Origin: Candidatus Aminicenantes bacterium
GTDB taxonomy: Bacteria > Acidobacteriota > Aminicenantia > Aminicenantales > UBA4085
Direction of reading: 5' to 3'
Assembly: GCA_026393855.1 (NCBI GenBank)
Contig: JAPKZJ010000091.1
Location: forward strand, 1-64,000
Length of the DNA stretch: 64,000 nucleotides
Positions 24,685 through 49,313 of this stretch are shown here, piece by piece (positions within the stretch are counted from its first letter, which is position 1; each line of letters begins with the position of its first letter). Position numbers and translations under genes: made by a program. Below the pieces are notes generated by a model. That model was given only the letters and a program-made list of their open reading frames with translations, ran no database searches and was not told where the DNA came from.

Positions 24685-25458
24685 ATGAACAAACGGGTTC
24701 TGGGGTTCGGTCTGGCCATGGCGCTTTGCGGCCTCGTCGTCATGGCCCGGGCTCAGGAGACGGCTTCGGCGGATCCGGTCCGGACGGGTTTTTTCCTTCA
24801 AATCCAAGGCGGAGGGGCTTTCTTTCTGAAAAGCCCGCTGTCCGCGTCCAAGGATTTTTCCCTCTTCGGCGAGACGGGCACATCCACGGAGACCTATAAG
24901 TATGGGACCGCTCCGGCGATCGACGCCGCGATCGGATCGTACTTCCGATGGGGAGGATTGACCATTAAAGCCGGCTTGGGATTCCAAAGATCTTTCCGCC
25001 GCGACTCGGGGAGCTATACCCTCACGCTCCCCCACCCGCTCGAGGCCGGCAACCCGCGGACCGTCGCTTTTAGCTCGGACGACCTTCCGGATACATCAAC
25101 GAGCTTTTACGTCTTTGGCTTGTTCTCCCTGATCCATTCCAAAGGCGTGGATCTTTGGCTCGGACCGATCATCGGATTGGGCCTGGAGAAGTTCGCCACA
25201 TTGGACGATTTCACCATCCAGGAAAAGCCGCCGTACTCGAGCGCCGATGTCTCGATCACGGATGTAACGATGATCAAGACGTCCGTCTCCTCTCTTTGGT
25301 ACGGAGTCGCCGCTGACGCGGAATTCGCTCTGAGCCGGCCTTTCGCCCTGGTCGCCTCGGCAAAGATCATCTATGACGACCCCAAGATCGCGGCCCTCGG
25401 CCGACGGGCCAACCTGCTGCGGATCGAGGGAGCCGCCGGATTCCGGATCGTTTTTTAA
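24685..25458 (+). CDS. Predicted outer-membrane beta-barrel protein (family 1)
   Basis: A 257-residue protein with a clear signal peptide (MNKRVLGFGLAMALCGLVVMARAQ) and an AAGGAGAG ribosome site. Alternating hydrophobic strands and a terminal aromatic (RIVF) fit a small barrel. It is a paralogue of the C-terminal half of the protein at 47513-48697: shared blocks include LPHPL/F, GETG/AS-ETY, LGPI-G and TLDDFTI/TLDDYTI. Followed 85 bp later by a secreted propeller gene. Confidence 0.7.
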   Translation: MNKRVLGFGLAMALCGLVVMARAQETASADPVRTGFFLQIQGGGAFFLKSPLSASKDFSLFGETGTSTETYKYGTAPAIDAAIGSYFRWGGLTIKAGLGFQRSFRRDSGSYTLTLPHPLEAGNPRTVAFSSDDLPDTSTSFYVFGLFSLIHSKGVDLWLGPIIGLGLEKFATLDDFTIQEKPPYSSADVSITDVTMIKTSVSSLWYGVAADAEFALSRPFALVASAKIIYDDPKIAALGRRANLLRIEGAAGFRIVF

Positions 25459-25543
25459 TCGGCCCGCTCGCCGTGAGGATACAGGATTCGGCAATAAGGA
25501 AACGTTCGAGCAAAATGTCGCGATTATCGGGAAGGAGTCTCCG

Positions 25544-26947
25544 ATGAAGAAAACCGCTGGGTTCGTTTTGGCCATTGTTCTTCTGGTTGCCGCCTCCTTC
25601 GGGCAGTCCCTGGGCAACGGCGCCCAGGTGGCGGAATCGGACGGGAAATTGCGCTGGTCGCAATGCGCCTTCGGTCCGGACGGCGTCCTCCACGTCATCT
25701 ACGGGGACGATACGGACACGGGTGATTCCATCTGGTACGTGAATTTCAACGGCTCGACGTCCAGCACGCCGCTGGCCTTGACCCCTTCTGGCATGCGCGG
25801 TACGCGGCCGGGCATCGGCGTCAACCGCAAAGGCTCCGTCATCGCGGCCTGGGGGACGGGCGCCGACAAAGGCATCTACATGCGGATTTACAATCCCCAA
25901 ACGAAGACTTGGGGCGCAACGGAGGCGGTCGAGATCGGCTACGGATTCGAGGAGCCCGCGCCCGTCCTCGACGACATCGGAAACATCTACGTCTTCTGGT
26001 CCGACGCCAACGGCTACGCCTACACGCGGCTGAAAATCAACGGCGTCTGGGAAAACCATGTCCGGATGACCGCGGGCTACGGCAAACAGGGCGGCATCAC
26101 CGTCGGTACGGACGGCTGGATCTGGACCGTCTGGCGCGAGAAGATCGGCTCGAACTACAAGAATTTCTGGTCCAAGCGGACCAAAACAACCGCCTGGACG
26201 GGAGCCACGATCCTGACCTCGGGCGGCGGCAGCTCGTCCCACCCAATCATCACCGTCGGACCCAACAACGTCCCCGTCGTCGTCTGGGGCGACATCGACC
26301 AAGCTCTGGAGAACGGTTGCGAGGTCAAGCTGATGCGGCCCGGCATCGACACGACCCGCGAGCTCCTGATCCCCTTCGCCATGCAACACTACCCGCGGGT
26401 CGCGGTCGACGCCAACAACAAGATCCACGTCGCCCTTCAATTGGGGGGCGGCGACTACGGCGACGGCTTTCGCTACACCAATAACGTCACGGGCAGCTGG
26501 TCGCCGGTCCAGACGATCCTCGGCTCCCTGCCCAAGCTCCCCGGCATCTCGGCGGATCCTTTCGGCAACGTAGCCGTCTGCCAAACCAGCTATGTCACGG
26601 CCACGAACAAGACCAAGGTCCACATCTACAGCCTGACGGCCCTCTCACTCCACTATTTCTATCCTCCCACTTCCCCTGCCTCGACGATCCAGACCAAGGG
26701 TGTTCGGAAAGTCCCGGAAGTGTCCTACAGCCTGTCCTGGGCCGCCAACCCCCTGAACAACGACCAGTATCTGCAGGGATACGTCATCTATGTCAAGGAA
26801 GGGACAGGCGCCTATCAGCCGCTCCTAACGGTCAACAAAGCGACGTTCACCGCGCTGTTCAAATACACCGATTTGAGCAAGAAGCGGCGTTTCGCCATAA
26901 CGACTCTTGCCGTCGGCGGGGGTGAATCGGATCTCGTGGAATTCTGA
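25544..26947 (+). CDS. Secreted beta-propeller protein with C-terminal FN3-like domain (family P)
   Basis: A 467-residue protein. The ATG at 25544 follows GGAAGGAG and starts a signal peptide (FVLAIVLLVAASFGQ). The middle holds sialidase-like propeller repeats (RWSQCAFGPDGVLHVIYGD, KQGGITVGTDGWIWTVWRE, SSHPIITVGPNNVPVVVWGD and further). The last 100 residues read as a fibronectin-III-like fold (YSLSWAANPLNNDQYLQGY, then FAITTLAVGGGES). No catalytic residues are recognised. It is a close paralogue of 44820-46232; both end in ESDLVEF/ESDLIEF. Confidence 0.75.
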   Translation: MKKTAGFVLAIVLLVAASFGQSLGNGAQVAESDGKLRWSQCAFGPDGVLHVIYGDDTDTGDSIWYVNFNGSTSSTPLALTPSGMRGTRPGIGVNRKGSVIAAWGTGADKGIYMRIYNPQTKTWGATEAVEIGYGFEEPAPVLDDIGNIYVFWSDANGYAYTRLKINGVWENHVRMTAGYGKQGGITVGTDGWIWTVWREKIGSNYKNFWSKRTKTTAWTGATILTSGGGSSSHPIITVGPNNVPVVVWGDIDQALENGCEVKLMRPGIDTTRELLIPFAMQHYPRVAVDANNKIHVALQLGGGDYGDGFRYTNNVTGSWSPVQTILGSLPKLPGISADPFGNVAVCQTSYVTATNKTKVHIYSLTALSLHYFYPPTSPASTIQTKGVRKVPEVSYSLSWAANPLNNDQYLQGYVIYVKEGTGAYQPLLTVNKATFTALFKYTDLSKKRRFAITTLAVGGGESDLVEF

Positions 26948-26951
26948 TCGG

Positions 26952-26980
26952 TTCGGGCCGGCCCGGGCGGCCGGCCCGGA
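26952..26980. terminator. Bidirectional terminator-like GC hairpin
   Basis: CGGGCCGGCC (26954-26963) pairs perfectly with GGCCGGCCCG (26969-26978) around a 5-nt loop, between the convergent propeller and acyltransferase genes. No U-tract is present, so termination is inferred from position and stem only. Confidence 0.4.
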
Positions 26981-26986
26981 TTATCG

Positions 26987-27739
26987 TTAGAGCGAGCGGC
27001 GGTCCGCGATCCGAAGCCGGCGGTCCGCGACGACGTAGGCATATTCGGGCAGCGACGCCGCTACCACCGCGCCCGCGCCGACCACGGTCCCCGTCCCGAT
27101 CGCCACACCGTCGAGCACGGTGACGCCGGCACCCAGCCAGACATCATTCCCGATCCGGATCCCGCCCTTGGCTTCGGACGGCTGCTCCATGATCGGCCGC
27201 GAGGTGTCCTTGATCGGGTGATTCCCTCCGGCCACCAGGTAGCATCCTCCGGCCAGGAAGCAGAAGCGGCCGATCTCGATGACGGATTCGGACAGCAGGC
27301 TACAGTTGGCCGAGACATTGCACGACTCGCCCAGGACGATCGAGCCTTCCTTGCAGCTCAAAATGGTGGAACGGCCGATCAGCGCCCCCGCCCCGATCCG
27401 AATGCCCCGATTGCCCTCGCCTTTGGCGTCGAGCACGGCCCCGTCGTCGATCACGGCGTTGTCCCCGATCACGATCTTGTGGGGATGCCGCAGGGTGACG
27501 CCGCGGCCGAAGACCACCCCGCGACCGACTCCGCCCAGGATCAGGGGCAGGAACATCTTGCGCAGAAAAAGCCCCAAAGCCCCGGGGACGGGCAGGACGA
27601 AAAGATTGACGAATTCATAGGCCAGGAGCGGCAGAAGCCCTTTCCGGCCGACAAACATCGATCGATATTTGGCTCCGGCCGACCGGCCGGACGCATGAAG
27701 CTCTTTCTGAGTGCTGCCGGGGAAAGACTGGCCGCTCAT
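26987..27739 (-). CDS. Hexapeptide-repeat (left-handed beta-helix) acyltransferase-like protein
   Basis: A 250-residue protein. Imperfect [LIV]-G-x4 hexapeptide repeats run from about residue 75 to 235 (IVIGDNAVIDDGAV, IRIGAGALIGRSTI, IRIGNDVWLGAGVTVLDGVAIGTGTVVGAGAVV). A His in AGGNHPIKD fits a catalytic position of O- or N-acetyltransferases. It overlaps the GT39 gene by 4 nt and closes a four-gene operon with deacetylase and glycosyltransferases, suggesting sugar acylation. Confidence 0.8.
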   Translation of the reverse strand: MSGQSFPGSTQKELHASGRSAGAKYRSMFVGRKGLLPLLAYEFVNLFVLPVPGALGLFLRKMFLPLILGGVGRGVVFGRGVTLRHPHKIVIGDNAVIDDGAVLDAKGEGNRGIRIGAGALIGRSTILSCKEGSIVLGESCNVSANCSLLSESVIEIGRFCFLAGGCYLVAGGNHPIKDTSRPIMEQPSEAKGGIRIGNDVWLGAGVTVLDGVAIGTGTVVGAGAVVAASLPEYAYVVADRRLRIADRRSL

Positions 27740-29811
27740 GGCAACTCCTTGGACGGGACGATATCAATCCAATCCAGGTCGGCAGTCGTGGCGCCGGGAG
27801 CCAGCACGCGCAAGCGAAGCGCTCCCGGAGTCCTGACACCAAACGAGGCTTCCACTTCGGCGAATGCCTCCAGGCCGGAGGCGAGACGGATCGTTCGCAG
27901 GGTTTCGCCTGTTCGAGAGTCCATGACGGCCAGGATCAAGGCTTCCCGCCCGCCGGCCTCTCGGCCCGTCCGGCCCCGCAGGCGCAGCCGGTACCGGCCG
28001 GGCGGGTATTCGCCGGGCAGGTCGACGGAGAATTCGTCCCGGCGGCCTTGCGGCCAAGACATCCAGGCCCGCCGCGAAGCGTCCCCGCCATAAGCCACCC
28101 GTCCCCGCCGCGCCGGCAACGACTCGCCCTCGAGCGTCCTCGTTCCGGAGGTAAGGCCGCCCACCGGATCGTTCCAGAGATAGACCTCGGAGACGCCGTC
28201 CCAGCCGCGGAAGACGCGCCGGTCCGCCTGGCCCGCCAAGAAGTCCGCGATCTCGCGATTGATATGATCGCGCCGGACGAGGGAGGTCGAGCCGACCAGC
28301 CAAACCCGGCGGGCGGGATTCGCCTCGATCACCTTCTTCAGGTCGGCCAAGTTGTTGATCCAGCGGGCCCCGACATAGAAATCCCGCCAGCCGTCCGGCG
28401 TCTTTTCCCAGGCGTCCCATGTTCCCGGCCCGCCCGACCACAGCCAGTAATCGACCCGGCCGACATAGACCTTCTGGAACACGACATGAATGGCCACGAC
28501 GATATCGTCATCGCGCAGGAAGTGCTTTACGTATAGACCTGTATTAGCGTTGTCCTCATGCTCGAAGCGGCCGGAGCGGGTAATGATGTCGGTCTCGATG
28601 GGATCGTTATAGCGGCGCTCGACGATGGCCAGAACCCGCTTGAGGCCGGCGCCCTCGGTCAGGACGGCCGCCGCGATCAGGAACAGAATCAAGCCGGCCG
28701 CTTCCCGGGCTTTCGGGCGCAAAGACGCGAACGGCGCCACGATCAGGTCCGGCAGGGCCCGAGCGGCCTCGCGCAGGGCGACCAGAAAGAGCAGGACGAA
28801 GACCGGATGCAGTGGGGCCAGGTAGCGCGGCTGGACATGGGTCCGGAAGAAGGCCAGGAAAAGGAGCGGGAAAAGGAGGCCAAGCGTGAGGTACAGCCAG
28901 GGGGAACGGCCCCGATCATCCTCCGCCGCCCCCCGCCCCAGGCGGATGCCCAGGTAGAGAAAGATCCCGCCCAGCACGACCAGGCTCATCAGCGGGAAAG
29001 AGATGAAAAATTCTTTAAAATATTTGAGGTTGAAGCTCCCGAAAAAATAATTGAACATCCCCCTCAGGCTGGTGTCGGTCTTCTCATAGACATAGCCGAC
29101 TTTCCAGAAGAAGAATTCGCCTACCTGCATGCCCAGGTAGAACAGGGTCACCAGGCCGAAGCTCGTCAGCAGGTCTTTTTTCAGGAACCGCTTGAGCCCC
29201 TTCATCACCAGCAGGGCGAAGAAACAGAAATAGACGCTCATCCCGAGCTGGTGGACCTGGGGCGTGAGGACGAACAGGACGACCACCCAGGGCCTGAACT
29301 TGGGCCGGTCCTCGATGAACGCCTGGTAGAAGACATAGATCGAGGCCAGGACCATGAGCTGCAACGGCGCGAAGTACAGGGCCAGCCGGGCGTCCTCGAC
29401 CTCCCAGGCCGAGAAGGCCAGGATGACTGCGGCCGCAAGCCCCACCGATCGGGAGAAGAATCGCTGGCCGACGAACCAGGCCAGGATAATCAGGCCGGCC
29501 GTAGAAAGCACCGAGACGATCCGCAGCGTCGTTGCCGTCAGGCCAAAGATCTTGCCGAGCCCGGCCAAGACATAGGCGTAGAGGATTGCCTTCCAATAGA
29601 TATGCCCCGATGGGTAGAGCGGGTAACCGTGCTTGAGGATGCCGTCTGCCGCCAGAATGTGGAAGCCCTCGTCCATCCAGTACGACAAGTAGCCGAGGTT
29701 GCGGAGCATCAGGGCGATCCAAGCCGCCGTGAAGGCCGCAATGAAGGCCCAGGCCAGGAGATCGGCCGTGCGGCGGGGCGAAGACGGGAGAGACGAGGGG
29801 CCGCCGGTCAC
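27736..29811 (-). CDS. GT39/ArnT-like polytopic glycosyltransferase with C-terminal periplasmic domain
   Basis: A 691-residue protein with around ten transmembrane segments in the first two thirds. The first periplasmic loop contains YWMDEGFHI, giving the Asp-Glu pair characteristic of PMT/ArnT (GT-C) enzymes that use polyprenyl-phosphate sugars. The last 150 residues are soluble and beta-rich, resembling a carbohydrate-binding module. It sits 4 bp after the GT2 gene, which could supply its polyprenyl-linked donor. Confidence 0.8.
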   Translation of the reverse strand: MTGGPSSLPSSPRRTADLLAWAFIAAFTAAWIALMLRNLGYLSYWMDEGFHILAADGILKHGYPLYPSGHIYWKAILYAYVLAGLGKIFGLTATTLRIVSVLSTAGLIILAWFVGQRFFSRSVGLAAAVILAFSAWEVEDARLALYFAPLQLMVLASIYVFYQAFIEDRPKFRPWVVVLFVLTPQVHQLGMSVYFCFFALLVMKGLKRFLKKDLLTSFGLVTLFYLGMQVGEFFFWKVGYVYEKTDTSLRGMFNYFFGSFNLKYFKEFFISFPLMSLVVLGGIFLYLGIRLGRGAAEDDRGRSPWLYLTLGLLFPLLFLAFFRTHVQPRYLAPLHPVFVLLFLVALREAARALPDLIVAPFASLRPKAREAAGLILFLIAAAVLTEGAGLKRVLAIVERRYNDPIETDIITRSGRFEHEDNANTGLYVKHFLRDDDIVVAIHVVFQKVYVGRVDYWLWSGGPGTWDAWEKTPDGWRDFYVGARWINNLADLKKVIEANPARRVWLVGSTSLVRRDHINREIADFLAGQADRRVFRGWDGVSEVYLWNDPVGGLTSGTRTLEGESLPARRGRVAYGGDASRRAWMSWPQGRRDEFSVDLPGEYPPGRYRLRLRGRTGREAGGREALILAVMDSRTGETLRTIRLASGLEAFAEVEASFGVRTPGALRLRVLAPGATTADLDWIDIVPSKELP

Positions 29812-29815
29812 GGGC

Positions 29816-31656: not shown

Positions 31657-31675
31657 GGAAATTCTTTGCCCCGCA

Positions 31676-31690
31676 ATTATAGTATAATCC
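31676..31690. promoter_or_regulatory. Divergent promoter region (near-palindromic -10)
   Basis: ATTATAGTATAAT lies in the 51-bp gap between the divergent deacetylase and asnB genes and reads almost the same on both strands. On plus it gives TATAAT (31683-31688), 19 nt before asnB; on minus it also gives TATAAT-like boxes. -35 boxes are weak. Confidence 0.4.
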
Positions 31691-31707
31691 TTCGGGATTT
31701 ATTCAAC

Positions 31708-33597: not shown

Positions 33598-33604
33598 GAA
33601 GCAG

Positions 33605-34282: not shown

Positions 34283-34385
34283 TCGGCCCGGCGGCGCGGG
34301 TTTTTCACGCCTTTTTTGCGCTACTCGCCTCGGCCCATGCAGCCGAAGGCGCCAACCTGATCCCTCCTTGAAGGAGGGGCCGGGG
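34254..34385 (+). repeat. Dispersed repeat, copy B (ends in a CCCTCCTTGAAGGAGGG hairpin)
   Basis: Starts within the 3' end of the methyltransferase gene. CTCCCATCTCCGGGC, GCCCGGCGGCGCGGG, TTTTTCACGCC, TTTTTTGCG and CATGCAGCCGAAGGCGC are shared with copy A in the same order, but copy A's 70-bp middle is absent. The terminal CCCTCCTTGAAGGAGGG palindrome (34363-34379) replaces the one in A. Confidence 0.7.
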
Positions 34386-34705: not shown

Positions 34706-34712
34706 TAACGCG

Positions 34713-37407: not shown

Positions 37408-37414
37408 CGCCCTC

Positions 37415-38392
37415 ATGACCCGACTGGAATACTACAAGCGGCTGGGCAAGATCGCCCGCGCCTACAAGGGCCGCCGGACGCGCCTCGACTATATGCCCAT
37501 CCGTCTGTGGATCGAGCCGACCAGCGTTTGCAACCTGCGCTGCGTCATGTGCCCCAACAAGAACCTGACCAAGGACCAGAAGGGGTTCATGGACTTCGAG
37601 CTGTTCAAGAAGATCATCGATGAGGCCAAGGATTTCGTCTCCGACGTCCATTTGCTCCACCGGGGCGAGTCGCTCCTGCACCCCGACTTCTTCAAGATGG
37701 TCCGCTACGCCCACGACGCCGGCATCGTCACCCGCTTCCACACCAACGGCACCCTGCTCGACGAGGACAAAGCCCGCAAGCTGATCGAGGCCGGGCTGGA
37801 CCAGTTTGCCTTCTCCTTCGACGGGATGGACAAGGAAACCTACGAGTCCATCCGGGTCAACGCCGATTTCGACAAGACCGTGGCCAACATCGTCCGCTTT
37901 CTGGAGATCAAGAAGGAGATGGGGGCCAAGAAGCCCGTCACCCTGATCGAGCTCATTCGCTTTCCCGAGGTCTTCAAGAAGTACGACCAAGCGGCCCAAA
38001 AGGCTTTCCTGGCCCGCTTCAAGGGCCTGCCGCTGGACCACCTCCATATCAAAGAATTGCACAACTGGGCCGGCGACGTCGGCCAGGCTCCGCCCAAAAC
38101 CTCTTACTCGCCCTGCACCTTCCTCTGGCACGCCCTGATCATCTTCTGGGACGGGTCGGTCCTGCCCTGCACCCAGGACTTCTTCGGCTATTACACCCTG
38201 GGCAACGTCAAGGACGCGTCCATCCGCGAGATCTGGAACAACAACATGATGGTCCGCCTGCGGGAGAAGGTGCTGTCCCGGGACGTCTCCGACCTGGAGA
38301 CCTGCTCCAAGTGCGACCGGCTATGGCGCCGCCAGTTCCTGGGCATTCCGCGCGAGTATCTCGGCCGAGCCCTGCGCAAAAACATGAGCTAG
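37415..38392 (+). CDS. Radical SAM protein with SPASM-type C-terminal cysteines
   Basis: A 325-residue enzyme. The CNLRCVMC motif binds the 4Fe-4S cluster that cleaves SAM; FHTNGTLL and FSFDGMDKETYESIR are conserved barrel motifs. The C-terminal region has SPCTFLW, VLPCTQDFFG, LGNVKDASIREIW and CSKCDRLW, the SPASM arrangement for an auxiliary cluster. Substrate unknown; related enzymes modify peptides, sugars or lipids. Confidence 0.88.
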   Translation: MTRLEYYKRLGKIARAYKGRRTRLDYMPIRLWIEPTSVCNLRCVMCPNKNLTKDQKGFMDFELFKKIIDEAKDFVSDVHLLHRGESLLHPDFFKMVRYAHDAGIVTRFHTNGTLLDEDKARKLIEAGLDQFAFSFDGMDKETYESIRVNADFDKTVANIVRFLEIKKEMGAKKPVTLIELIRFPEVFKKYDQAAQKAFLARFKGLPLDHLHIKELHNWAGDVGQAPPKTSYSPCTFLWHALIIFWDGSVLPCTQDFFGYYTLGNVKDASIREIWNNNMMVRLREKVLSRDVSDLETCSKCDRLWRRQFLGIPREYLGRALRKNMS

Positions 38393-39105: not shown

Positions 39106-41316
39106 TTATCGGGGCCGGGCCACGATGAAGACAGAGTGAACGGGGGGCAGAGCCAGCGAAAATTCCGTCACGTCGCGGCCGCGGTCGACAGCCCGGCGCG
39201 ACTTCAGTCGTTCGACGCGGCCCGTATGCGGGTCCCATATCTCCATCGTCGCGAAGCGGCCCCGCAGACGGACCGTGGTCTCGGCTTTCTCGTCGCTCGA
39301 GTTGGCAAAGAAATAGACGTCCCGTCCTTCGATCACTTTATGAAGATAAGATAAATTCCCGCCCTTCGCTTCCGCCGGCGCCTGCCAAGCGACGTCGGGA
39401 GCGGCGGCGCCCTCGTCAAGCGCCGCCAGAAGCGCCGCTGCCGAAGGAACGGGGACAAAAAACGCCCGGCCGGGACTCGAACCGCCGCTTTTCGTCCCGC
39501 CGCCGAGCATGGCTTCGAGCAGGGCTTTGACCTCATCATCCTTGCCGGGCTCGGCCGATCGGTCCGGGAGCCTCGTAGTGAAGATGACCCGGCCGCCCCG
39601 GTCAAAGAAGGCCTTGATTGCCCGTAGGTTGTCGGCCCGAATCGCGACGCCCCCCGGAACGATGACGGTCGTGAAGGCCTGCGACCAGTCCGGATGGACG
39701 AGCCGTAAGACGCCGTCCTCAACCCGGCATTGGGCGGCCAGGACCTCGGGATGGAGATAGGTGAAATCCCGCCGCAGGCGGAGCGAGAGCCGCTCGCCGA
39801 CCTCCATGTAATCCGCCTCGGGCGGAATGACTCCGCCTTCGTAGGGCTTGCCAGTCCCGAAATGGTACCCGGCCTGCAGCCCGGCGATGGGATACAGGAC
39901 GGCGATGTCGACCGCAGGGACGCCCTGCTGGAGAATCCTTTGCAGGCGGCCCATATATTTATTATAGGCCGGGAGCTCGGCCGCGTAGGGCGGCGTGCGG
40001 GGTGAAAGCTCGGGCGGGAAGGTGATGTCGGCCGAGTTCGTCCAAACGGCATGCGGAACCATGACGTTGATCCCCTTGGCGAACTGGTCCATGGCCTCCC
40101 GGTAGAGCGTCGCGACCGGCATGTCTTTCATGGCTCCGTAGGTCTCGGTCATAACTTTGCGGCGATCGTAGTTTGCGGCCGCAGAGCTCACGACCTTGTA
40201 GGCTTTGGAGGCGCGGCCGTAGGTGAAGATTTCGTCCACCCCGGGGATGGGCTGGTCGCGGAAGCACTTGATCAGATCGCCGCACAGCCCGACCGGGTTG
40301 ACGATCTCCTCCTGGTCGACGTGACCGGTCAGGGCGATGCCGTGCGCCCGACACCAGTCGGCCAGGGTCTTGACGAACCCCGAAGCGAAGAGCTCGGCCC
40401 GGAACCCGAACAGGGCGTTGCGCGCCGCGGTAGTGTCGGGGCCGATATCGAGCCACAGAGCCGGATAGAGCAGAGTCGGGTCGCCGCCGCGGGCGGCCCG
40501 GAAGCGCTCGTTGAACTTCGGCGTCCAAGCCCGTCCTCCTTCGACCCAATGGAAGGTCGGCTCGTCGTAGAAGGCGCTGTCGATGGTCGTCCCGAAATGT
40601 CGGCCCAGGCGCTCGAAGTACTTTTCGTAGGTCAGCGAGATAAAGTCGCGGACCGCCGCGGGGTCCAGGTAATCGACCAGGCCGCGGGCCCCGTCGGGGA
40701 CGCAGGCGAAGAACATCACCGTCCAACGGCCCGCGGGAGCGTCCCAGGACAAACGGCCGTCCTTGATCCGCGAGGCCAGATCAAGGCGCTCCAGGGTCGT
40801 CTCGTTCATGGCCACGGCGGCCATCAGCTCGCCCTTGGGGACGGCGGCCGAGAACCGGCGCGGCCCGGTGACCGGCAGGGCCGTCCTGTCCAGCCGTTTG
40901 GACAGCGAGCCGGGGAATTTCGCCGCCAACAGGCCGCCGGCACTACCGCTGGGAAACCAGAACTCGTCGTACAGGCACATAGTCATGCCCAACGAGGCGG
41001 CCTTTTCCACGGCCTCCTCATAGCGATCAAGGTATTCCGGCCCCATGAAGGCGAGCTTCATCTTGGGCGTCGGAAGGATGCCGAAGCCGCCATAGCCCGC
41101 GGTCCGGGACTGGCCCATCAGCGCCTCCGTACCGGATCGGCTCGGCGGGGCGTTCCAGAACCACAGTGGCCGCGGCTTCCAACGGGCCGGGGGATCGGCG
41201 AAGTCCTGCTTCATCCCGGACCAGGTCGGATCCGGACGACACGAAGGGAAAAAGAGGACGGCGGCCAGCGCGGCCGGGAGGATACGGCGAAGGAAGATAG
41301 GGGCTGGGTGCGGCAT
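39106..41316 (-). CDS. Exported GH106-like glycoside hydrolase
   Basis: A 736-residue protein with signal sequence (ILPAALAAVLFFPSC) and a possible lipidation Cys. PRPLWFWNAPP, CLYDEFWFPSGSAGGLL and AFYDEPTFHW match the large glycosidases annotated as alpha-L-rhamnosidase family GH106 and relatives. TGHVDQEE and the NVMVPHAVW region follow. Members cleave terminal rhamnose from pectic or microbial glycans; the substrate is unproved. It lies 13 bp downstream of the TolB-like gene. Confidence 0.7.
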   Translation of the reverse strand: MPHPAPIFLRRILPAALAAVLFFPSCRPDPTWSGMKQDFADPPARWKPRPLWFWNAPPSRSGTEALMGQSRTAGYGGFGILPTPKMKLAFMGPEYLDRYEEAVEKAASLGMTMCLYDEFWFPSGSAGGLLAAKFPGSLSKRLDRTALPVTGPRRFSAAVPKGELMAAVAMNETTLERLDLASRIKDGRLSWDAPAGRWTVMFFACVPDGARGLVDYLDPAAVRDFISLTYEKYFERLGRHFGTTIDSAFYDEPTFHWVEGGRAWTPKFNERFRAARGGDPTLLYPALWLDIGPDTTAARNALFGFRAELFASGFVKTLADWCRAHGIALTGHVDQEEIVNPVGLCGDLIKCFRDQPIPGVDEIFTYGRASKAYKVVSSAAANYDRRKVMTETYGAMKDMPVATLYREAMDQFAKGINVMVPHAVWTNSADITFPPELSPRTPPYAAELPAYNKYMGRLQRILQQGVPAVDIAVLYPIAGLQAGYHFGTGKPYEGGVIPPEADYMEVGERLSLRLRRDFTYLHPEVLAAQCRVEDGVLRLVHPDWSQAFTTVIVPGGVAIRADNLRAIKAFFDRGGRVIFTTRLPDRSAEPGKDDEVKALLEAMLGGGTKSGGSSPGRAFFVPVPSAAALLAALDEGAAAPDVAWQAPAEAKGGNLSYLHKVIEGRDVYFFANSSDEKAETTVRLRGRFATMEIWDPHTGRVERLKSRRAVDRGRDVTEFSLALPPVHSVFIVARPR

Positions 41317-41329
41317 GAAGAATTCCTTT

Positions 41330-42319
41330 TCAGCGCCAATCGGGGAAGACGTCGCGAGCCCCGCTCCCGAAGAGGGGGATGACCCGCTTAGTCGTCACGC
41401 GGACGATCGCCAGCGACCAGATCCCCTGGGTCGGATAATGTTCGGTGCCCGAGCTGAAGACGATGGACCGGCCGTCGGGGGACCAGGAGGCGAAATAATC
41501 ATAGGTATCCGGCCGGTCGGTCAGCCGTTCCCGGCCGCTGCCGTCGGAATTCATGATCCAGATGTCGCCCTTGCCGTCGGCCTCGGAAGAGGCATAAGCG
41601 ATCTTGGCACCGTCGGGCGAGAAATGCGGCCGGCAGGCATGGCCGCCCTCGGTCAGCGGCCGGACGGCCCTCGTGGCCAGATCGACGACATAGATATCCC
41701 AGCCACGCAGCCGCTTGCCGGTGAATCCAAGCACGGGGGCGGCAGGAGAAAACTCGGGCAGGGCGCTCGAACCTTCGAACTCCGGCAGGAGCGTTTCGGC
41801 CGTCCCGCCGTCCAGGCCGACCGATTTCAGAATGTAAGAGCGCCCGACCGCCCTCCGCCGCTCCTCGGTGAAGGCCAGCCGCCGGCCGTCCGGGAACCAG
41901 GCTTGTTCAATGGCGTCCGCCTCGGAATGGGTGACCTGACGAACATCGGAGCCGTCGGAGGCCATGGTATGGATCTGATAGCGCCCGGTCCGGTTCGAGC
42001 TGAAGGCGATCCGCTTGCCGTCGGGGGACCACTTCGGGAACTCGTCCGAAGCCGGGTCGTCGGTCAGGCGCCGCAGCCCGGTTCCGGTCAAAAGATAGAT
42101 GTCGTTGTCCCCATCCAGGTCGGACTGGAAAACGATGCCGCCGCCGAACTCGAAGGACGGGCGCAGGGAGGACAAATCGATCCTTGCGGCGGGGGGCGCG
42201 GCTGGTGCGCTCGGGTTGGACTTGCCGCAGGCCGTCGCCAGAAACGCCGCCGCGGCGATGAGGCCGACGAAGCCGGCGGCCGGCGAAACGCCTCGCCAGC
42301 GCTTGTCCGAAAGTTTCAT
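41330..42319 (-). CDS. TolB-like (PD40/WD40) beta-propeller lipoprotein
   Basis: A 329-residue protein. The start at 42319 (MKLSDKRW) gives a signal sequence ending in a lipobox-like FLATAC. Repeated blade motifs follow: SDEFPKWSPDGKRIAFSSNRTG, FPDGRRLAFTEERR, HFSPDGAKIAYASSEADGKGDIWIMNSDGSGRERLT and FASWSPDGRSIVFSSG. These are PD40 blades as in TolB. No catalytic site. Probably binds glycan or protein at the outer membrane and works with the glycosidase gene downstream. Confidence 0.75.
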   Translation of the reverse strand: MKLSDKRWRGVSPAAGFVGLIAAAAFLATACGKSNPSAPAAPPAARIDLSSLRPSFEFGGGIVFQSDLDGDNDIYLLTGTGLRRLTDDPASDEFPKWSPDGKRIAFSSNRTGRYQIHTMASDGSDVRQVTHSEADAIEQAWFPDGRRLAFTEERRRAVGRSYILKSVGLDGGTAETLLPEFEGSSALPEFSPAAPVLGFTGKRLRGWDIYVVDLATRAVRPLTEGGHACRPHFSPDGAKIAYASSEADGKGDIWIMNSDGSGRERLTDRPDTYDYFASWSPDGRSIVFSSGTEHYPTQGIWSLAIVRVTTKRVIPLFGSGARDVFPDWR

Positions 42320-42390
42320 GCTCGTATTGTAGGATAAGAACGGCCCGGCGGCCAGCCGCACCGACGATGCCGGCCCGAAAACTACCGGAG

Positions 42391-42419
42391 TTGAGGCCCG
42401 GCGCGTCCTATGCTATAAA
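42391..42419 (+). promoter_or_regulatory. Promoter of the 42439 barrel gene
   Basis: TTGAGG (42391-42396), 17-nt spacer, TATAAA (42414-42419), 19 nt before the ATG. Confidence 0.5.
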
Positions 42420-42438
42420 CCGGACAGAGCTAAAAACG

Positions 42439-43050
42439 ATGAAGATCCTCTTTCCGGCCAGAACCGCTGCGGCTGCCTTGGCGCTCATCTTCCTCCTGCC
42501 GGCTTTTTCCGCGGCCCAGGACGAGCTCCGTCCGGCGGCCGCCCCCAATGCCTGGCTCGGGATTCTCGGCGGCCGGTTCGCTCCCTCCGACTCCGTCTTC
42601 AAGGAAGTCTACGGGACAGAAGGCTTGGCGCTAGGCCTCAGCGCGGGCCGCATGCTTTACCGGTCCGAGGGATTCAGCCTGGCGGTCGATCTCGATGTCC
42701 GGCGCTTCGCCAAGCCCGGCGGATCGACCATCTCCGGCACCGCCTCCCGCCTGACCCTGATCCCGATCGCCGCCGGGCTCGAAGCGGCCGTTCGTCGCGG
42801 CACCGTCGGCCTCTGGCTGGGAGGGGGCGCGGATTGGATCTTTTACAGCGAGGATAGCGAGTGGATCTTGAGCCGGGGGTCGGCCTTCGGCTTCCATGTC
42901 GCGGGAGGGCTCTTCCTCGAGCCCGCCTCCGGCCCCATCCTTAAGGCCTACATCCGCTGGTCCAAAGCTTCCAAAGCGATGGAAGGGTTCACCGTGGACC
43001 TGGGCGGGACGGAGATCGGGGCTGCGCTTCTTTTCCGGTTCGATCTCTAG
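42439..43050 (+). CDS. Predicted outer-membrane beta-barrel protein (family 2)
   Basis: A 203-residue protein with a signal peptide (ARTAAAALALIFLLPAFSAAQ). Amphipathic strands and a terminal Phe (LLFRFDL) suggest an 8-stranded barrel. It shares GRF-x4-D-x2-F-EVYG near the N-terminus and VDLGGTEIGAALLF at the end with 48705-49313. The start at 42439 follows a promoter with no strong ribosome site. Confidence 0.65.
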   Translation: MKILFPARTAAAALALIFLLPAFSAAQDELRPAAAPNAWLGILGGRFAPSDSVFKEVYGTEGLALGLSAGRMLYRSEGFSLAVDLDVRRFAKPGGSTISGTASRLTLIPIAAGLEAAVRRGTVGLWLGGGADWIFYSEDSEWILSRGSAFGFHVAGGLFLEPASGPILKAYIRWSKASKAMEGFTVDLGGTEIGAALLFRFDL

Positions 43051-43056
43051 ACGGGC

Positions 43057-44805
43057 TTAGCGCCGATCCAGCCGCTTGACGCCGGTAGCTTTATCCTTGG
43101 CGTCCGTCTCTTCGGCCGTATTATTGGTGTCCGAGCTCAAGGGGCTTTCGTGGCCCGACGCGTCCAGAGCCGACACCGCGTAAACATATGTCGCTCCGGC
43201 CGCCATCTTGGTATCGCGATAGGCGAAAACCGTCCCATCGACGTCGGCCACCTTCAAGTAGATCGAGTCGTCGTCGTCGGTCCGTTTGCGATAAACCCGG
43301 TACTTGGTGATGGCGGCCACGGCGTCGTTGGCCGGATTGGCCGCCCAAGTCACTTCGGTGACGCTCCGAGTCTGGAACATGCTCTTGTCGAGGTGGACCG
43401 TCCAATCCACGTTCAGCGGGGCATACAGCCCGAGCACGGCGAGCGTCTGGATCTTGGAGCCGGGCTTGCCGAGGTTGTCGACGACGGTCAGCTTGACGGA
43501 ATAATTGCCGCGCGTTTCGAAGGTGTGGTTGACGGTGCGGCCGCTGCCCGTGTCGCCGTCGCCAAAGATCCAGTCATAGCGGGCGATGGTGCCGTCGGGG
43601 TCCCGCGAGGCGGAGCCGTCGAAGGTCACCGTCAGGGGGGCGATCCCGGTCGAGGGGGAGAAAGCGAAATCGGCGATCGGGGCCACATTCGTGGGCGTGC
43701 CGCCGCCACCCGAGGCGCCCAAGGAATAAATGATCTCCCCGCCGGCGTCCCAGACGATGTTGGCCTTGCCGGCGGAATCCACGGCAACATCGACAAAAGT
43801 GCAGCCGTTGGAACCGGAAATGGCGCTCTGGCCGCCCCACTTGCCGCCAGAGTAAACATTCTGGTAGACGGCCTGGCCGGCGCCATAGGAGCCGACCTGC
43901 CAAACGGCGTAGAGGGAGCCGGACTTCTCGGCCAGAGAAGGATAGTGGAGCATGGTCTCGTCGGAGATGTTCTGGGGCGAGCCGAATCCGGAGCCGGTCC
44001 AGGCGCAATGCTGGACAATCCGGTTAGGGTCGGTGACGGGAGTGAAGACCACATGCGGCGTCGTACCGTTGGCGTATTCGGCCACGGGATGCTGTTGGGA
44101 AATCGAGCCGGGCGCCAGACGGACGCTGGAGTTCCAGCCCGATCCGTAGCCCGAGCTGCGAAGTCGATAGGCGGCTTGGTAGATCTCGCCGCTCTTTTCC
44201 ACCCAGCAGACAAGAGCCTGGCTCGTGCCGACGGCGATATCGGGGAACTTCGCCCGTCGGCCGCTTTCGCTGACCGACTGGGCGCCTTCCCAGCTGCCAT
44301 TGATCCTAGCCCGAGTGATGATCGTCCCGTCGTCGGACCACCAGACGCAGAAAAGATCCCCACCGCCCGTGACCGCGATCCGCGATCCGTCCAGGCCGCT
44401 TCCCGAACCGATCTGGCTGACGCTGCCCCAACCGCCTGAAGTTCGGACTCGAAGCATGACCGCGTTCTGGGCCGACCAGATGACATAGACGTTGCCGGAA
44501 TCGTCGATATCGACGGAGCAGGCCATCAGGGTGCCGCTCCAGACCCGGCCCGACTCGCTTAAGTTGACGGGGGCGCTCCAAAGGCCGGTGCTCTTGACCA
44601 GGCGGCTGAAGAAAAGATCTCCGTTGCCGGAGCCGTAGACTTCGATCCAGGCGACGTTGACGTTGCCCTCGGGATCGATGGCGACGCGGGGATACCAGGA
44701 CTGCCAGCCGGGGGAGTTGGAGATGTTGACTTGGCCGAAGGCGGCGGCCGCCAAAACAAAAAGGAGTCCGGCGGCCAGCGCCGGGCTCCTCAGCATACGT
44801 TTCAA
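43057..44805 (-). CDS. Secreted beta-propeller protein with PKD and FN3-like domains
   Basis: A 582-residue protein. The TTG at 44805 is preferred to an ATG three codons later because AGGAG lies 5 nt upstream of it and it supplies the basic N-region of the signal peptide. Order: propeller blades (YPRVAIDPEGNVNVAWIEVYG and similar, to about residue 380), a PKD domain (PLTVTFDGSASRDPDG, WIFGDGDTGSG, HTFETRGNYSVKLTVVDN), then an FN3-like region. Likely cell-surface adhesion or binding; no catalytic site. It lies 14 bp after a related gene. Confidence 0.75.
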   Translation of the reverse strand: MKRMLRSPALAAGLLFVLAAAAFGQVNISNSPGWQSWYPRVAIDPEGNVNVAWIEVYGSGNGDLFFSRLVKSTGLWSAPVNLSESGRVWSGTLMACSVDIDDSGNVYVIWSAQNAVMLRVRTSGGWGSVSQIGSGSGLDGSRIAVTGGGDLFCVWWSDDGTIITRARINGSWEGAQSVSESGRRAKFPDIAVGTSQALVCWVEKSGEIYQAAYRLRSSGYGSGWNSSVRLAPGSISQQHPVAEYANGTTPHVVFTPVTDPNRIVQHCAWTGSGFGSPQNISDETMLHYPSLAEKSGSLYAVWQVGSYGAGQAVYQNVYSGGKWGGQSAISGSNGCTFVDVAVDSAGKANIVWDAGGEIIYSLGASGGGGTPTNVAPIADFAFSPSTGIAPLTVTFDGSASRDPDGTIARYDWIFGDGDTGSGRTVNHTFETRGNYSVKLTVVDNLGKPGSKIQTLAVLGLYAPLNVDWTVHLDKSMFQTRSVTEVTWAANPANDAVAAITKYRVYRKRTDDDDSIYLKVADVDGTVFAYRDTKMAAGATYVYAVSALDASGHESPLSSDTNNTAEETDAKDKATGVKRLDRR

Positions 44806-44819
44806 ATAAGCTCCTGGCG

Positions 44820-46232
44820 TCAGAACTCGATCAGGTCGCTTTCGCCGCCGGCAGGGTTGACCGTCGTAATGGCGAAGCGGCGCTTCTTGGTCAAGTCGCT
44901 GAAGGTGAAAGTGGCGTTCAGGGTCGCCTTGTTCACGTTAAGCAGCAGCTGATAGGCGCCGCCGTTTTCCTGCATATAGACGTTATAGCCCGTGATCCAG
45001 GCGTCCGTATTCGCCGGATTGGCGGTCCAGGTCAGGTTGTAAGTAATGCCGGGCGAGCGGCGGACGTTCTTGAGGCTGATGGCCGCGGCCACGCTCTGCG
45101 GAGGGTAGATAAAGCGGGGAATGATGGCCTGTGTCGTCCAAATATAGATATCGGAGCCCTTGCCGTCGGTCAGCATGTCCGACAGGCAAATCCCCACGTT
45201 GCCGTAAGGGTCGGAGGAAAGCCCGACGACTTTATCCATCGAAGTGAGACATTGCTGGGGCGAAGACCAAGACCCGGTGACGTTGTTGGCATAGACCGCG
45301 CCGCTGCCGAAATCGCCGCCGCCGATCTGGGCGGCGACGTGGATCTTCAGGTTGGGATCGACGACGGCCCGGGGGTAGTGCTGCATGGCGAACGGGATGG
45401 CGATCTCGCGAACCGCGCCGCTGACCAGCTTGATCAGCCGAATCTCGGCGCCCGTTTCGTTGTTGATGTCGATGTCGCCCCAAACACCGATGGCGACGCT
45501 GTCCGGGCCGACGGTGATGGAGGGGTGGGAAGAGCTGCCGCCGGATGACGTCACGAGGTCCGCGCCCGACCAGGTACCGCCGTGGGGCCGCGAGGCGTAA
45601 TAGTTTTTGTAGACGCCTCCGCCCCCCTTTTCCCGCCACAGGGCCCAAGCCTTGTTGTTCGGACCGACGGCCACACCGCCCTGCTTGGCGTAGCCGCTGC
45701 TCAAACGGACGGCGGAGCCCCAAACCCCGTTGGTCCGGGTGGAGCAATAAGTCCGTCCTTGATCGTCATTGGAGAAGAAGCAATGCACGGTCCCGTCCGA
45801 TTCGATCGCCAGTTGGGGTTCGCCCCAGCCATAGCCGGGCGCGATCGAGTCAATGGCGCCCCACGCCTTGGTCTTGGGATCATAGATCCGGACGAAAATG
45901 CTGTCCCCGGCATCCACGCCCCAGGCGACCGCAACGACCCCGTGAGAGCTGACGGCGATCCCGGGCCGCTCGCCCCGGATGTCCAAGGAACCAGTCACAT
46001 TAAAGGGAGTGCTGGCCGTCGTCCCATCATAGTTGACATACCAGATCGGATGGCCCCGGTCGGAGTCCTCTTCGAAGCAGACATGAAGGACTCCCTCAGG
46101 GCCGAAGGCACATTGGGACCAGCGGACACCGCCCGTGACGTGGGCGATCTTCTTGTTATTGCCCAAAGTCTGAGCAAAAGGGAAACCCGCCAGGAGGATC
46201 ACGGCGGCGGCGAGGGCGATGCATCTCTTCAT
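44820..46232 (-). CDS. Secreted beta-propeller protein with FN3-like C-terminus (family P)
   Basis: A 470-residue paralogue of 25544-26947, sharing RWSQCAFGP-GVLHV, IWYVN, GYAKQGG/GYGKQGG, IPFAMQHYPR, NNVTGSWS and a FAITT...GGESDLIEF end. The start at 46232 follows AGGAG at 7 nt. A signal peptide (ALAAAVILLAGFPFAQ) is present. First gene of the two-gene unit with the PKD protein. Confidence 0.75.
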   Translation of the reverse strand: MKRCIALAAAVILLAGFPFAQTLGNNKKIAHVTGGVRWSQCAFGPEGVLHVCFEEDSDRGHPIWYVNYDGTTASTPFNVTGSLDIRGERPGIAVSSHGVVAVAWGVDAGDSIFVRIYDPKTKAWGAIDSIAPGYGWGEPQLAIESDGTVHCFFSNDDQGRTYCSTRTNGVWGSAVRLSSGYAKQGGVAVGPNNKAWALWREKGGGGVYKNYYASRPHGGTWSGADLVTSSGGSSSHPSITVGPDSVAIGVWGDIDINNETGAEIRLIKLVSGAVREIAIPFAMQHYPRAVVDPNLKIHVAAQIGGGDFGSGAVYANNVTGSWSSPQQCLTSMDKVVGLSSDPYGNVGICLSDMLTDGKGSDIYIWTTQAIIPRFIYPPQSVAAAISLKNVRRSPGITYNLTWTANPANTDAWITGYNVYMQENGGAYQLLLNVNKATLNATFTFSDLTKKRRFAITTVNPAGGESDLIEF

Positions 46233-46382
46233 TAGCAACTCCTTTAAAGGATTCGGCGACATGATGCCCTAATAGAATAGCCCTTGTCAACCCAAATGGA
46301 CGTCCCTGGGCGCAAAGTATGATACATCGGCCCCAGTCGATTGAAAAAAATAAAATATCAAGCTATAGTGGGAGCGCCAACC

Positions 46383-47468
46383 ATGAGGAAAGAAAGCTTG
46401 CCGAAGCCAAAAAATGCCGCTAAAGCCTATCGGAATGTAGCCTTTAGGGGCCTAGCCGTCCTCGGGCTCGCGGCTAGCCTTTTCGCCGCTCACGGGGCGC
46501 AGAAAATTCAAGCCCCAAGGCTCGGCCGTGGGGCCATGGCGGCCCAAGGCCCTATATTTAACCCTGCTCTTAATGAATCCCGATATATCGGCTTCGGGGA
46601 CAGCATCACATACGGGACAATCAACCACGACTATCACCCCGAGCTGGGCTACATTCCCCGCTTAGAAGCGCTCTTGGACACAGCATATGGGCCGTCTGAA
46701 GTGGTCAATGAAGGAGTGGGCGGCGAGGAAACGAGCCAGGGCAATTTGAGGATCGACACCGTCATCGCCATTCGTCAAGCGAGATATATCTTAATAATGG
46801 AGGGGACTAACGACGTTACCTTCCTTCGGCCGGTTTCGACCATCATCGGCAATCTTCGAACCATGATCGGGAAATGCCTGAGCTACGGCCTGCTGCCGGT
46901 CCTGGCTACTATCATCCCCCGGCGCGACGACAAATGGTACATTGCCTCGCACCGCGAGATCCATCTCGCGCTCAATCCGGCCATCCGCCTTCTAGCGGTC
47001 GAGATGAAAGTCCCCCTGGCCGACATGGATCAAATCTTCAACAACTACCTACCGGGCGGGCCGGAAGCCCTTTTGTCCGAAGATCTCAAGCATCCCAGCG
47101 AGAAGGGCTATCAGGTCATGGCCGAGGCCTGGGCCGCGGCGATCAAGGCTCTGCCTTTCCCTCCCGAACTGGTCCGGGCCCGCGCGGATTCGGATAAAAT
47201 TCTGTTTTACCGAAAGCCCGGAAATATGATAACGTGGCGCCCGAATGCCAAGTCCGAAGCCGCCGGCACCGAGGGCAGTTACCGGGTTTACCGGCGCAAA
47301 TCGGGCGAGGGCGCGGGCGCCTTTCGCCTGTTGGCCGAGATCGAAGCGGCCGAATCTTACTTCGACGTCTCGGCGACGGCCGGCACGATCTATGAGTATG
47401 TCGTTTCCGCGGTCCGGATGGACGGAGTCGAAGGTCCGTGTTCCGCCGTCGCGACGTTGGAACATTAG
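46383..47468 (+). CDS. SGNH/GDSL-family hydrolase (exported), FN3-like C-terminus
   Basis: A 361-residue protein. FGDSITYG is block I with the nucleophile Ser; GGEETSQG holds the block II Gly; EGTNDVT is block III (GxND); and DLKHPSEKGY gives the catalytic Asp-x2-His. A signal segment (FRGLAVLGLAASLFAAHGA) lies near the N-terminus. The last 100 residues resemble FN3 (YRVYRRKSGEG...YEYVVSAVRMDG). Probably a carbohydrate or lipid esterase. The ATG at 46383 is preferred over a TTG 14 codons earlier. Confidence 0.82.
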   Translation: MRKESLPKPKNAAKAYRNVAFRGLAVLGLAASLFAAHGAQKIQAPRLGRGAMAAQGPIFNPALNESRYIGFGDSITYGTINHDYHPELGYIPRLEALLDTAYGPSEVVNEGVGGEETSQGNLRIDTVIAIRQARYILIMEGTNDVTFLRPVSTIIGNLRTMIGKCLSYGLLPVLATIIPRRDDKWYIASHREIHLALNPAIRLLAVEMKVPLADMDQIFNNYLPGGPEALLSEDLKHPSEKGYQVMAEAWAAAIKALPFPPELVRARADSDKILFYRKPGNMITWRPNAKSEAAGTEGSYRVYRRKSGEGAGAFRLLAEIEAAESYFDVSATAGTIYEYVVSAVRMDGVEGPCSAVATLEH

Positions 47469-47485
47469 GATGAGTCCTGTATAAT
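47457..47485 (+). promoter_or_regulatory. Promoter of the AMIN-barrel gene
   Basis: TTGGAA (47457-47462), 17-nt spacer, TATAAT (47480-47485). The -35 overlaps the end of the esterase gene; a GGAGGATCAG ribosome site precedes the ATG at 47513. Confidence 0.6.
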
Positions 47486-47512
47486 GAATCGATTTTACCA
47501 ACGGAGGATCAG

Positions 47513-48697
47513 ATGAAAAAGTCGTTCATAACGGCAGCCGCCTTGGCGCTGGCTGCGTTGATCGTTCTCTGCCCGGCTCTTCAGGCCCAGACCGCCGGCA
47601 CGCTGAAAAGCATTTCCACCCAGAAGGAAGGCAATCAGCTTCAGGTTCTGGTCATGGTCGACGGGGCGTTCACCCGCGAAGTGTCCTTCCTGACCTCGCC
47701 CAAACGCCTGGTCGTCGATCTGACGGGTGTGGCAACGATCGCCGCCGCCCCCTATATGCAGGTCGGGGACGCCGGGATCCTGGATATCCGCACCGGCCAG
47801 TTCAAGCCCGACACCGCCCGTCTCGTTTTCGACATGGGCCAGGCCACCCCCGCCTACACGGTCACCGAAATCCCGGGCGGGTTGAAGCTGTCGTTCTGGC
47901 TGGAAGCGGCCGACCAAGCCCAAGTCCAGGAGACGGTCAAGGAGCCCGTGCGCGAGCCCGTCCGCGAGACGGTTCGCCAGGCCGAGGAGCAGACCTCCAC
48001 CGAGCCCTATGCGGGGCGGAACGGCTTCTTCATCCGGGTCGGCGCCGGCATGGCCTTCTTCCTCAACCCGACCCACATCGTCGAGACGGATTTCCCGCTC
48101 TATGGCGAAACGGCCAGCTCGATCGAGACCTACACATGGAAGTCCGGGATCGCAGCGGACTTTTCCATCGGCAAATACTTCCATATCGGCAGCCTGCCGA
48201 TCAAGGCGGGCTTGGCGTTCTCCTATTGGCAATTCCTGCCCGAAGTCAACGTGGCCTTGTCGCTTCCTCACCCCTTCCTGACCGGATCCAATCGGAGCGT
48301 GACGTTCAGCGAGAGCACCGCCATGGCTTCGGCCTTCATGCGCTACTCCGCCTACTTCATGTTCTCCTTCCTGGATACGGGCAAGATCTCGGTCTGGTTC
48401 GGCCCCATCGCCGGAGTGACCAAAGGCAAGCTGATCACGCTCGACGATTACACCATCGAGGAGAATGCCCCCTACGCCTCGGCCGACATCCGGATCAGCG
48501 ACAAGACGGTCTATGAGCACGTCATCAGCCAGTTCCACGCCGGCGCCTGGCTGGGGATCGAGTACCGGCTGGACACCAAGCTCTCCCTCGGCTTTGACGC
48601 CAAGTTCCTCATCTTCAGCCCCAAATCGATCCGGTTTGCCGACAGCTTCAACCTGATGAGCCTGCAGCCGACCCTGTCGCTGCAGTACAGCTTCTAA
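47513..48697 (+). CDS. AMIN domain fused to a family 1 outer-membrane barrel
   Basis: A 394-residue exported protein. After the signal peptide, residues 25-135 form an AMIN domain (VMVDGAFTREVSFLTSPKRLVVDLTGV, then ARLVFDMG-AT-AYTV), the module that localises PilQ and AmiC near peptidoglycan. A repetitive linker (KEPVREPVRETVRQAE, about 145-165) leads to a barrel of about 220 residues ending QPTLSLQYSF, paralogous to the free barrel at 24685-25458. This architecture suggests the barrel is tethered to the cell wall. It lies 7 bp before the family 2 barrel gene. Confidence 0.75.
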   Translation: MKKSFITAAALALAALIVLCPALQAQTAGTLKSISTQKEGNQLQVLVMVDGAFTREVSFLTSPKRLVVDLTGVATIAAAPYMQVGDAGILDIRTGQFKPDTARLVFDMGQATPAYTVTEIPGGLKLSFWLEAADQAQVQETVKEPVREPVRETVRQAEEQTSTEPYAGRNGFFIRVGAGMAFFLNPTHIVETDFPLYGETASSIETYTWKSGIAADFSIGKYFHIGSLPIKAGLAFSYWQFLPEVNVALSLPHPFLTGSNRSVTFSESTAMASAFMRYSAYFMFSFLDTGKISVWFGPIAGVTKGKLITLDDYTIEENAPYASADIRISDKTVYEHVISQFHAGAWLGIEYRLDTKLSLGFDAKFLIFSPKSIRFADSFNLMSLQPTLSLQYSF

Positions 48698-48704
48698 GAG
48701 GCGC

Positions 48705-49313
48705 ATGACCAAGCGCTCGCTGGCGGCGACGGCGACCCTGGCCCTGCTGGGATTGCTGTGGCTGTCGTCGCCGGCGATCGCCGCGGCCCAGGATGAAGGC
48801 GGCGGCGCCTCTTCCAAGCGCCAGGGCTCTTTCGAGATCATCTACGGCCGCTTCTCCGTCAAAGACCCGCTGTTCACCGAGGTCTACTCCGCAGGGGGGA
48901 GCATCCAGGGGCTGGGCATCACAGCGGCCCTCTTCCTGAACATCGACTTCTACCTCGAAGCCAAGGCCTTCTATAAGAAAGGCCAATTGACCTTCACCAA
49001 AGAATCGACCAGCTTCCTCCTGCTGCCCTTTTCGGTCGGGTTCCGCTGGCGGGCCCCCCTGGGGCTGATCGAGCCCTTCGTCGGCGCGGGGCTCGACTAC
49101 GACGTCTACTACGAGAAGAACGCCATCGGCACGGCCCTCGATTACGCCAAGGGGACCCATGTCCTGGCCGGGGTCAGCCTGCGGCCGGGCAGAAACTCGC
49201 CGATCGCGCTGACCGGCCGGCTCCGCTATGCCATGGTCAAGGCCGAGCACGCCGGCGTGACCATCGACCTGGGCGGCCTGGAGGCGGGGGCCTCGCTGTC
49301 CCTCATCTTCTGA
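48705..49313 (+). CDS. Predicted outer-membrane beta-barrel protein (family 2)
   Basis: A 202-residue protein with signal peptide (TATLALLGLLWLSSPAIAAAQ). It shares GRFSVKDPLFTEVYSAGG and the terminal IDLGGLEAGASLSLIF with 42439-43050. Alternating hydrophobic strands and the final Phe support an outer-membrane barrel. Co-transcribed with the AMIN-barrel gene 7 bp upstream, so the pair may act together. Confidence 0.65.
   Translation: MTKRSLAATATLALLGLLWLSSPAIAAAQDEGGGASSKRQGSFEIIYGRFSVKDPLFTEVYSAGGSIQGLGITAALFLNIDFYLEAKAFYKKGQLTFTKESTSFLLLPFSVGFRWRAPLGLIEPFVGAGLDYDVYYEKNAIGTALDYAKGTHVLAGVSLRPGRNSPIALTGRLRYAMVKAEHAGVTIDLGGLEAGASLSLIF

Follow-up and report, generated by a model that had tools for sequence, protein, structure and literature searches.

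The nearest published design to the genes described here is that of the type IX secretion system (T9SS). According to PMC9143113, PorP/SprF proteins anchor cargo and PorP is joined to peptidoglycan via PorE; according to PMC12618676, a sprF-like gene lies directly downstream of type B cargo in 9 of 12 cases in F. johnsoniae. The stretch of DNA analysed here (64,000 nucleotides, hereafter the window) comes from the class Aminicenantia (Acidobacteriota), little-studied soil and sediment bacteria known mostly from metagenomes. It carries genes of secreted proteins with a common C-terminal domain (CTD), hereafter cargo, close to genes of small outer membrane barrels.

These Aminicenantia pairs may work like T9SS type B cargo with SprF, but by the tests made their parts are unrelated to it. 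Common to both are a Sec signal combined with a C-terminal signal domain and the existence of some orphan cargos (PMC9143113 and PMC12618676), as well as the position of the barrel gene, which here follows a cargo gene directly for 26 of 46 barrels. The CTD, in contrast, is fibronectin-III (FN3)-like and has no match to the T9SS signal models, as far as these were listed; the barrels are OmpA/OmpW-like, whereas PorP/SprF are 14-stranded FadL-type proteins; and, unlike in PorP, an AMIN domain is fused to the barrel itself.

Other known proteins resemble single components. Like OmpA, the modelled AMIN-barrel would combine an eight-stranded barrel and a peptidoglycan-binding domain on one chain, although AMIN at the N-terminus replaces the C-terminal OmpA domain and cargo genes are paired with the barrel. 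The GDSL autotransporter EstA, found by Foldseek with the AMIN-barrel model as query, displays an SGNH hydrolase on a barrel; unlike in EstA and type V autotransporters, hydrolase and barrel are here in separate genes, and the barrel is smaller than that of EstA. The predicted fold of propeller P is similar to those of PLL-type seven-bladed lectins and sialidases, a likeness of predicted fold only, with about 10-15% identity and an added C-terminal CTD.

Organisation of the gene cluster

Open reading frames are present at every coordinate named in the sequence-only reading, and the genes and the paralogies that it described are confirmed (Table 1). In profile searches, barrel 1 and the barrel part of the AMIN-barrel were related with an E-value of 2.4e-38, and the two barrel 2 proteins with 2.1e-14. 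The arrangement of these genes into three sets did not stand. The second set had been drawn as barrel 2 with two propellers, but the propeller genes lie on the minus strand and are convergent with barrel 2 at 42439, which is therefore outside their operon; a single operon of this barrel with the propellers is ruled out by the opposite strands. The second and third sets, which had been treated as separate, form one cluster (42439-49313) with an SGNH hydrolase gene in between. This hydrolase is a member of the cluster that was absent from the earlier sets, and the C-terminal domain common to the propellers and the hydrolase had been overlooked.

Within the cluster, barrel 2 at 42439 and the PKD propeller are 6 bp apart. 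The hydrolase, AMIN-barrel and second barrel 2 genes are all on the plus strand, divergent from propeller P copy 2, the AMIN-barrel starting 44 bp after the hydrolase and barrel 2 starting 7 bp after the AMIN-barrel. Outside the cluster, propeller P copy 1 starts 85 bp after barrel 1. The cluster is syntenic with a region of a same-genus genome (locus L076; 42.4-49.3 kb of the window), and at a locus from another family of the class (L206) propeller P, PKD propeller, a propeller-SGNH protein and an AMIN-barrel form a one-strand operon. The SGNH relatives carry an extra N-terminal propeller, which the window copy lacks. An orthologue of barrel 2 at 48705 (77%) was found in the same-genus Acidobacteriota MAG STD1_136, and several Candidatus Aminicenantes MAGs are also among its nearest relatives.

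Table 1. Barrel and cargo genes of the window
Feature	Coordinates	Strand	CTD	Matches and remarks
Barrel 1, no AMIN	24685-25458	+		35% identity to barrel of 47513; signal peptide; C-terminal F
Propeller P, copy 1	25544-26947	+	26669-26944	50% identity to 44820
Barrel 2 copy (b2-type)	42439-43050	+		34% identity to 48705; OMP_b-brl E 0.005, below cut-off
Propeller with PKD domain	43057-44805	-	43132-43416	PKD_4 E 7e-23; propeller K group
Propeller P, copy 2	44820-46262	-	44823-45098	upstream of PKD propeller, same strand
SGNH (GDSL) hydrolase	46383-47468	+	47172-47447	Lipase_GDSL_2 E 7.8e-23
AMIN-barrel (AMIN fused to barrel 1)	47513-48697	+		AMIN about 47591-47905, E 1.9e-7; barrel about 48008-48694
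Barrel 2	48705-49313	+		b2 HMM match; ends ..SLIF

Cargo proteins and their C-terminal domain

A single kind of FN3-like domain, the CTD, closes the propellers of both types and the SGNH protein, and it also terminates subtilase and FG-GAP proteins adjoining barrels elsewhere. At the fetched loci, each of the 93 frames with a CTD has it ending at most 37 residues from the C-terminus; the CTD model was trained on C-terminal copies and still detects internal copies where present. The CTD of propeller P copy 1 is a row of this model, and that of the window hydrolase, whose sequence is outside the model's rows, scored 55.8 bits. Weak matches to fn3-like Pfam families, and to no T9SS family, were obtained for 28 CTD rows.

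The bodies preceding the CTD are diverse. Among 55 barrel-adjacent proteins they belonged to SGNH (15), BNR_4 (9), subtilase (7), FG-GAP with UnbV (6), InlB-type repeats (4) and SBBP (1), with PKD repeats also present. The propeller was rejected as the constant partner of the barrel, since the bodies vary while the CTD is constant. The partner is any Sec-type protein with a terminal CTD, be it a propeller, SGNH hydrolase, subtilase, FG-GAP, SBBP or InlB-repeat protein, the signal-peptide rule applied being a lax one that 122 of 222 control frames also pass.

A structural model of propeller P copy 2 (pLDDT 81, pTM 0.81) consists of a propeller followed by a small C-terminal sandwich. Among solved structures it best resembled sialidases and the seven-bladed PLL-type lectins; for the lectins, TM scores by target length reached 0.72.

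Barrel families

Barrel 1 at 24685 had no Pfam match and scored 298 bits against the b1 HMM, of which it is itself a row. The AMIN domain that had been assigned to the protein at 47513 was recovered above the Pfam cut-off, and its fold was modelled too. The model of this protein (pLDDT 80, from an alignment of seven sequences) comprises AMIN and an OmpA-like barrel: residues 27-131 match AmiC with a Z-score of 13.0 (rmsd 2.3 over 103 residues), and residues 166-394 match OmpA, NspA and OmpW along the whole length with Z-scores of 18-19, the comparison covering Foldseek's own matches. The number of eight strands is taken from these matches, DSSP of the model showing extra hairpin strands. Peptidoglycan binding is an established property of AMIN domains elsewhere.

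Of 23 b2-type barrels, nine matched OMP_b-brl at an E-value of 0.01, one matched OmpW, and no other family was matched; AMIN was detected at the same threshold in 12 of 14 AMIN-barrels. PorP_SprF had no match in either group. Five matches to the Omp85 family were found elsewhere in the same genome and none in the window. An aromatic residue is present among the last three residues in 68 of 78 barrels and in 13 of 78 cargo proteins.

Of 94 genomes searched across the order, 15 contain barrel 1, 37 give a match to the propeller P profile and 60 have barrel 2. A barrel profile including AMIN was discarded for these counts, because it matched all 94 genomes, in some of them in frames with the sizes of other AMIN proteins. 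Most barrel-1 matches are in frames of about 400 amino acids and the aligned orthologues have AMIN; judging by this, the copy at 24685, which lacks the domain, seems to be a derived form.

In a tree of 121 barrels the state of being paired with cargo is clustered, requiring 19 changes as compared to a mean of 39.7 for shuffled labels (none of 500 shuffles was as low), and AMIN presence changes at least 12 times. Of the 20 rows in the clade that contains barrel 2 at 48705, 16 are unpaired. Six plain barrels of the same family adjoin unrelated genes (L255:1111-1695, L256:1148-1747, L257:967-1542, L258:1610-2185, L259:1613-2179 and L261:1394-1969); this subfamily is perhaps the ancestral stand-alone form.

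Pairing of cargo and barrel genes

The sequence-only reading had proposed co-occurrence in other genomes as its test. Such co-occurrence holds widely, with the CTD, and not the propeller, as the constant partner. Profile searches of 12 genomes gave 46 barrel and 84 CTD matches. A CTD lies no more than 1 kb away from 30 of the 46 barrels, whereas random placement produced 0.30 pairs on average and three at most in 2000 runs. Five of the 30 paired CTDs are rows of the search model; without them, 25 of 41 barrels are paired. Seven of the 12 genomes were chosen as the window's own or for having few contigs, and G008, G038, G040, G046 and G079 were chosen with matches already known. In two single-contig genomes the pairing was 3 of 5 (G003) and 3 of 4 (G004). 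Twenty control windows of 20 kb yielded two weak barrel matches and no match to the propeller, CTD, SGNH or AMIN.

In 26 of the 30 pairs the genes are on the same strand, with the barrel directly downstream of the CTD gene. The remaining four pairs are convergent, and for these no shared transcript is possible. Distances from cargo stop to barrel start, measured on the fetched cargo-barrel pairs, cluster around overlap; they are mostly between -37 and +64 bp, most commonly -4.

Counted from the other side, 30 of 67 CTD matches of at least 55 bits have a barrel within 1 kb, as opposed to none of the 12 generic fn3 domains that these genomes show above the Pfam cut-off (Fisher p 0.0025). Among four more fn3 matches below the cut-off, one was near a barrel, and that one lay on a CTD. 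No partner was found within 1 kb for 37 of the 67 strong CTDs and 16 of the 46 barrels.

CTD and barrel identities are weakly correlated over 69 pairs (Spearman 0.126), a value reached in none of 500 within-genome swaps; for within-genome comparisons only, the correlation was 0.553, and three of 500 swaps were as high. Judged from these sequence identities, the correlation shows that the pairs are inherited together and not that they bind each other, since joint duplication of gene pairs would yield the same result.

Possible function of the pairs

We regard the pairs as a class-wide cargo-dock system of Aminicenantia, in which the barrel holds the cargo by its CTD, with a probability of about 0.5. 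The cargo would consist of a Sec-type signal, a variable body and the terminal FN3-like CTD, and the dock would be a small barrel of OmpA/OmpW type whose gene either follows that of the cargo immediately or faces it tail to tail. Cargo would enter the periplasm by Sec and then cross the outer membrane, where the CTD bound to the cognate barrel may keep it at the membrane; the N-terminal AMIN of some docks would tie the barrel, together with its cargo, to peptidoglycan. Surface display of the cargo is the likeliest role. More tentatively, Aminicenantia might possess an outer membrane secretion and display pathway of their own, with the CTD as address, cognate OmpA-like barrels, AMIN as wall anchor and an unrecognised translocon, which would be convergent with T9SS and unrelated to it; on balance we consider this broader proposal possible but doubtful.

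The genes might instead form only an envelope gene island, brought together by co-regulation or as one surface coat, in which the CTD is a spacer or sugar-binding FN3 domain without barrel binding. C-terminal FN3 domains are common in secreted enzymes, the cluster sits amid glycosyltransferases and other surface genes, unrelated genes recur around it in relatives, and many CTDs have no adjoining barrel, all of which is consistent with an island. The pairs, however, are scattered over the genomes, each with one barrel and one CTD cargo gene that overlap or are a few bases apart; generic fn3 domains are not found near barrels; and CTD and barrel stay constant while cargo bodies vary. An island without docking seems unlikely, though it keeps some weight.

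Alternatively, the cargo could remain periplasmic and attach to its barrel from the inner side, thereby helping to connect the outer membrane with the cell wall. The AMIN fusions point into the periplasm, and searches of 94 genomes revealed no outer membrane translocon: secretin-like genes occur in 93 of them, none above the GspD cut-off, and the search for SprA was one without a working control. As lectin-like propellers, subtilases and FG-GAP bodies are typical of proteins working outside the cell, we give a periplasmic location a low probability.

A diverged T9SS, with the CTDs as type A or type B signals and the barrels in place of PorV or SprF, appears improbable as well. It would account for the gene order, which is the same as that of type B cargo with a downstream sprF-like gene (PMC12618676); type A signal domains are Ig-like, and PorP has a peptidoglycan link, PorE (PMC9143113). 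No T9SS signal family was found, however, for the window cargo at E-values up to 1, nor for the 55 cargo proteins among the 25 of 28 families listed; the barrels match OMP_b-brl and not PorP_SprF, and SprA (TIGR04189) was found in 0 of the 94 genomes, control genomes being equally without a match.

The suggestion of the sequence-only reading that barrels export propellers draws on the pairing of barrel and cargo genes, but is very improbable, because the modelled barrel fits eight-stranded OmpA, NspA and OmpW, and barrels of this size have no protein-sized lumen and leave too little room for a propeller, whether folded or extended.

If the barrels act as docks for CTD cargo, they would be a second instance, independent of T9SS, in which a C-terminal domain directs cargo to its cognate barrel, and this could help to separate the needed parts of such a design from chance history in T9SS. 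Under this proposal, many enzymes and lectin-like proteins should have one partner barrel each, and CTD-barrel pairing offers a simple gene rule for finding surface proteins of Aminicenantia.

Taxonomic distribution

The phylum was sampled with 396 genomes, of which 51 contain the CTD at an E-value of 1e-10. They comprise 22 of the 28 genomes belonging to the order, 19 that share its class but not the order, and 10 from other classes. Among these ten, G105 has strong matches and the remaining ones start at 1e-11 to 1e-15. No non-carrier of the same class was present among the genomes listed without a match, beyond which there are 325 further non-matching genomes. By sequence matches, the CTD is a trait of the class Aminicenantia. 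Outside the order, an adjoining barrel is present in 12 of 20 loci (L205-L211, L215 and L220-L223); these loci were chosen for their CTD match and part of the fetched loci for propeller matches, so neither this count nor the 78 of 135 obtained in the comparison of CTD and barrel identities is unbiased.

A search of one open-access literature collection found no published account of such pairing of CTD cargo and barrel and no paper joining Aminicenantes with the AMIN domain; Aminicenantes together with fibronectin type III gave nothing related.

Neighbouring genes

Adjoining the cluster, a gene at 39106-41316 (-) encodes a secreted protein similar to GH106 alpha-L-rhamnosidases (Pfam E 1e-35), which is kept in the same-genus locus L076. 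Three further genes recur around the cluster in relatives: those of a TolB-like PD40 propeller (41330-42361, -), a radical SAM/SPASM protein (37415-38392, +) and a B12-binding radical SAM protein (51681-53126, +).

The product of 50209-51684 (+) is a secreted GH130-like protein with a FlgD_ig C-terminus, which gave a weak TIGR04183 match below the cut-off and is not of the CTD type. The gene at 49430-50194 (+) encodes a methyltransferase-like protein whose N-terminal signal resembles that of lipoproteins (..LGGAAC, identified by eye), although export would be unusual for a SAM enzyme; matches to this protein recur near barrels in L076 and L098. Two tandem paralogous glycosyltransferases of the PMT family are encoded at 53018-57222 (+). 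Their relatives sit between propeller genes in L101, L102, L103 and L105, and glycosylation of the cargo is therefore possible.
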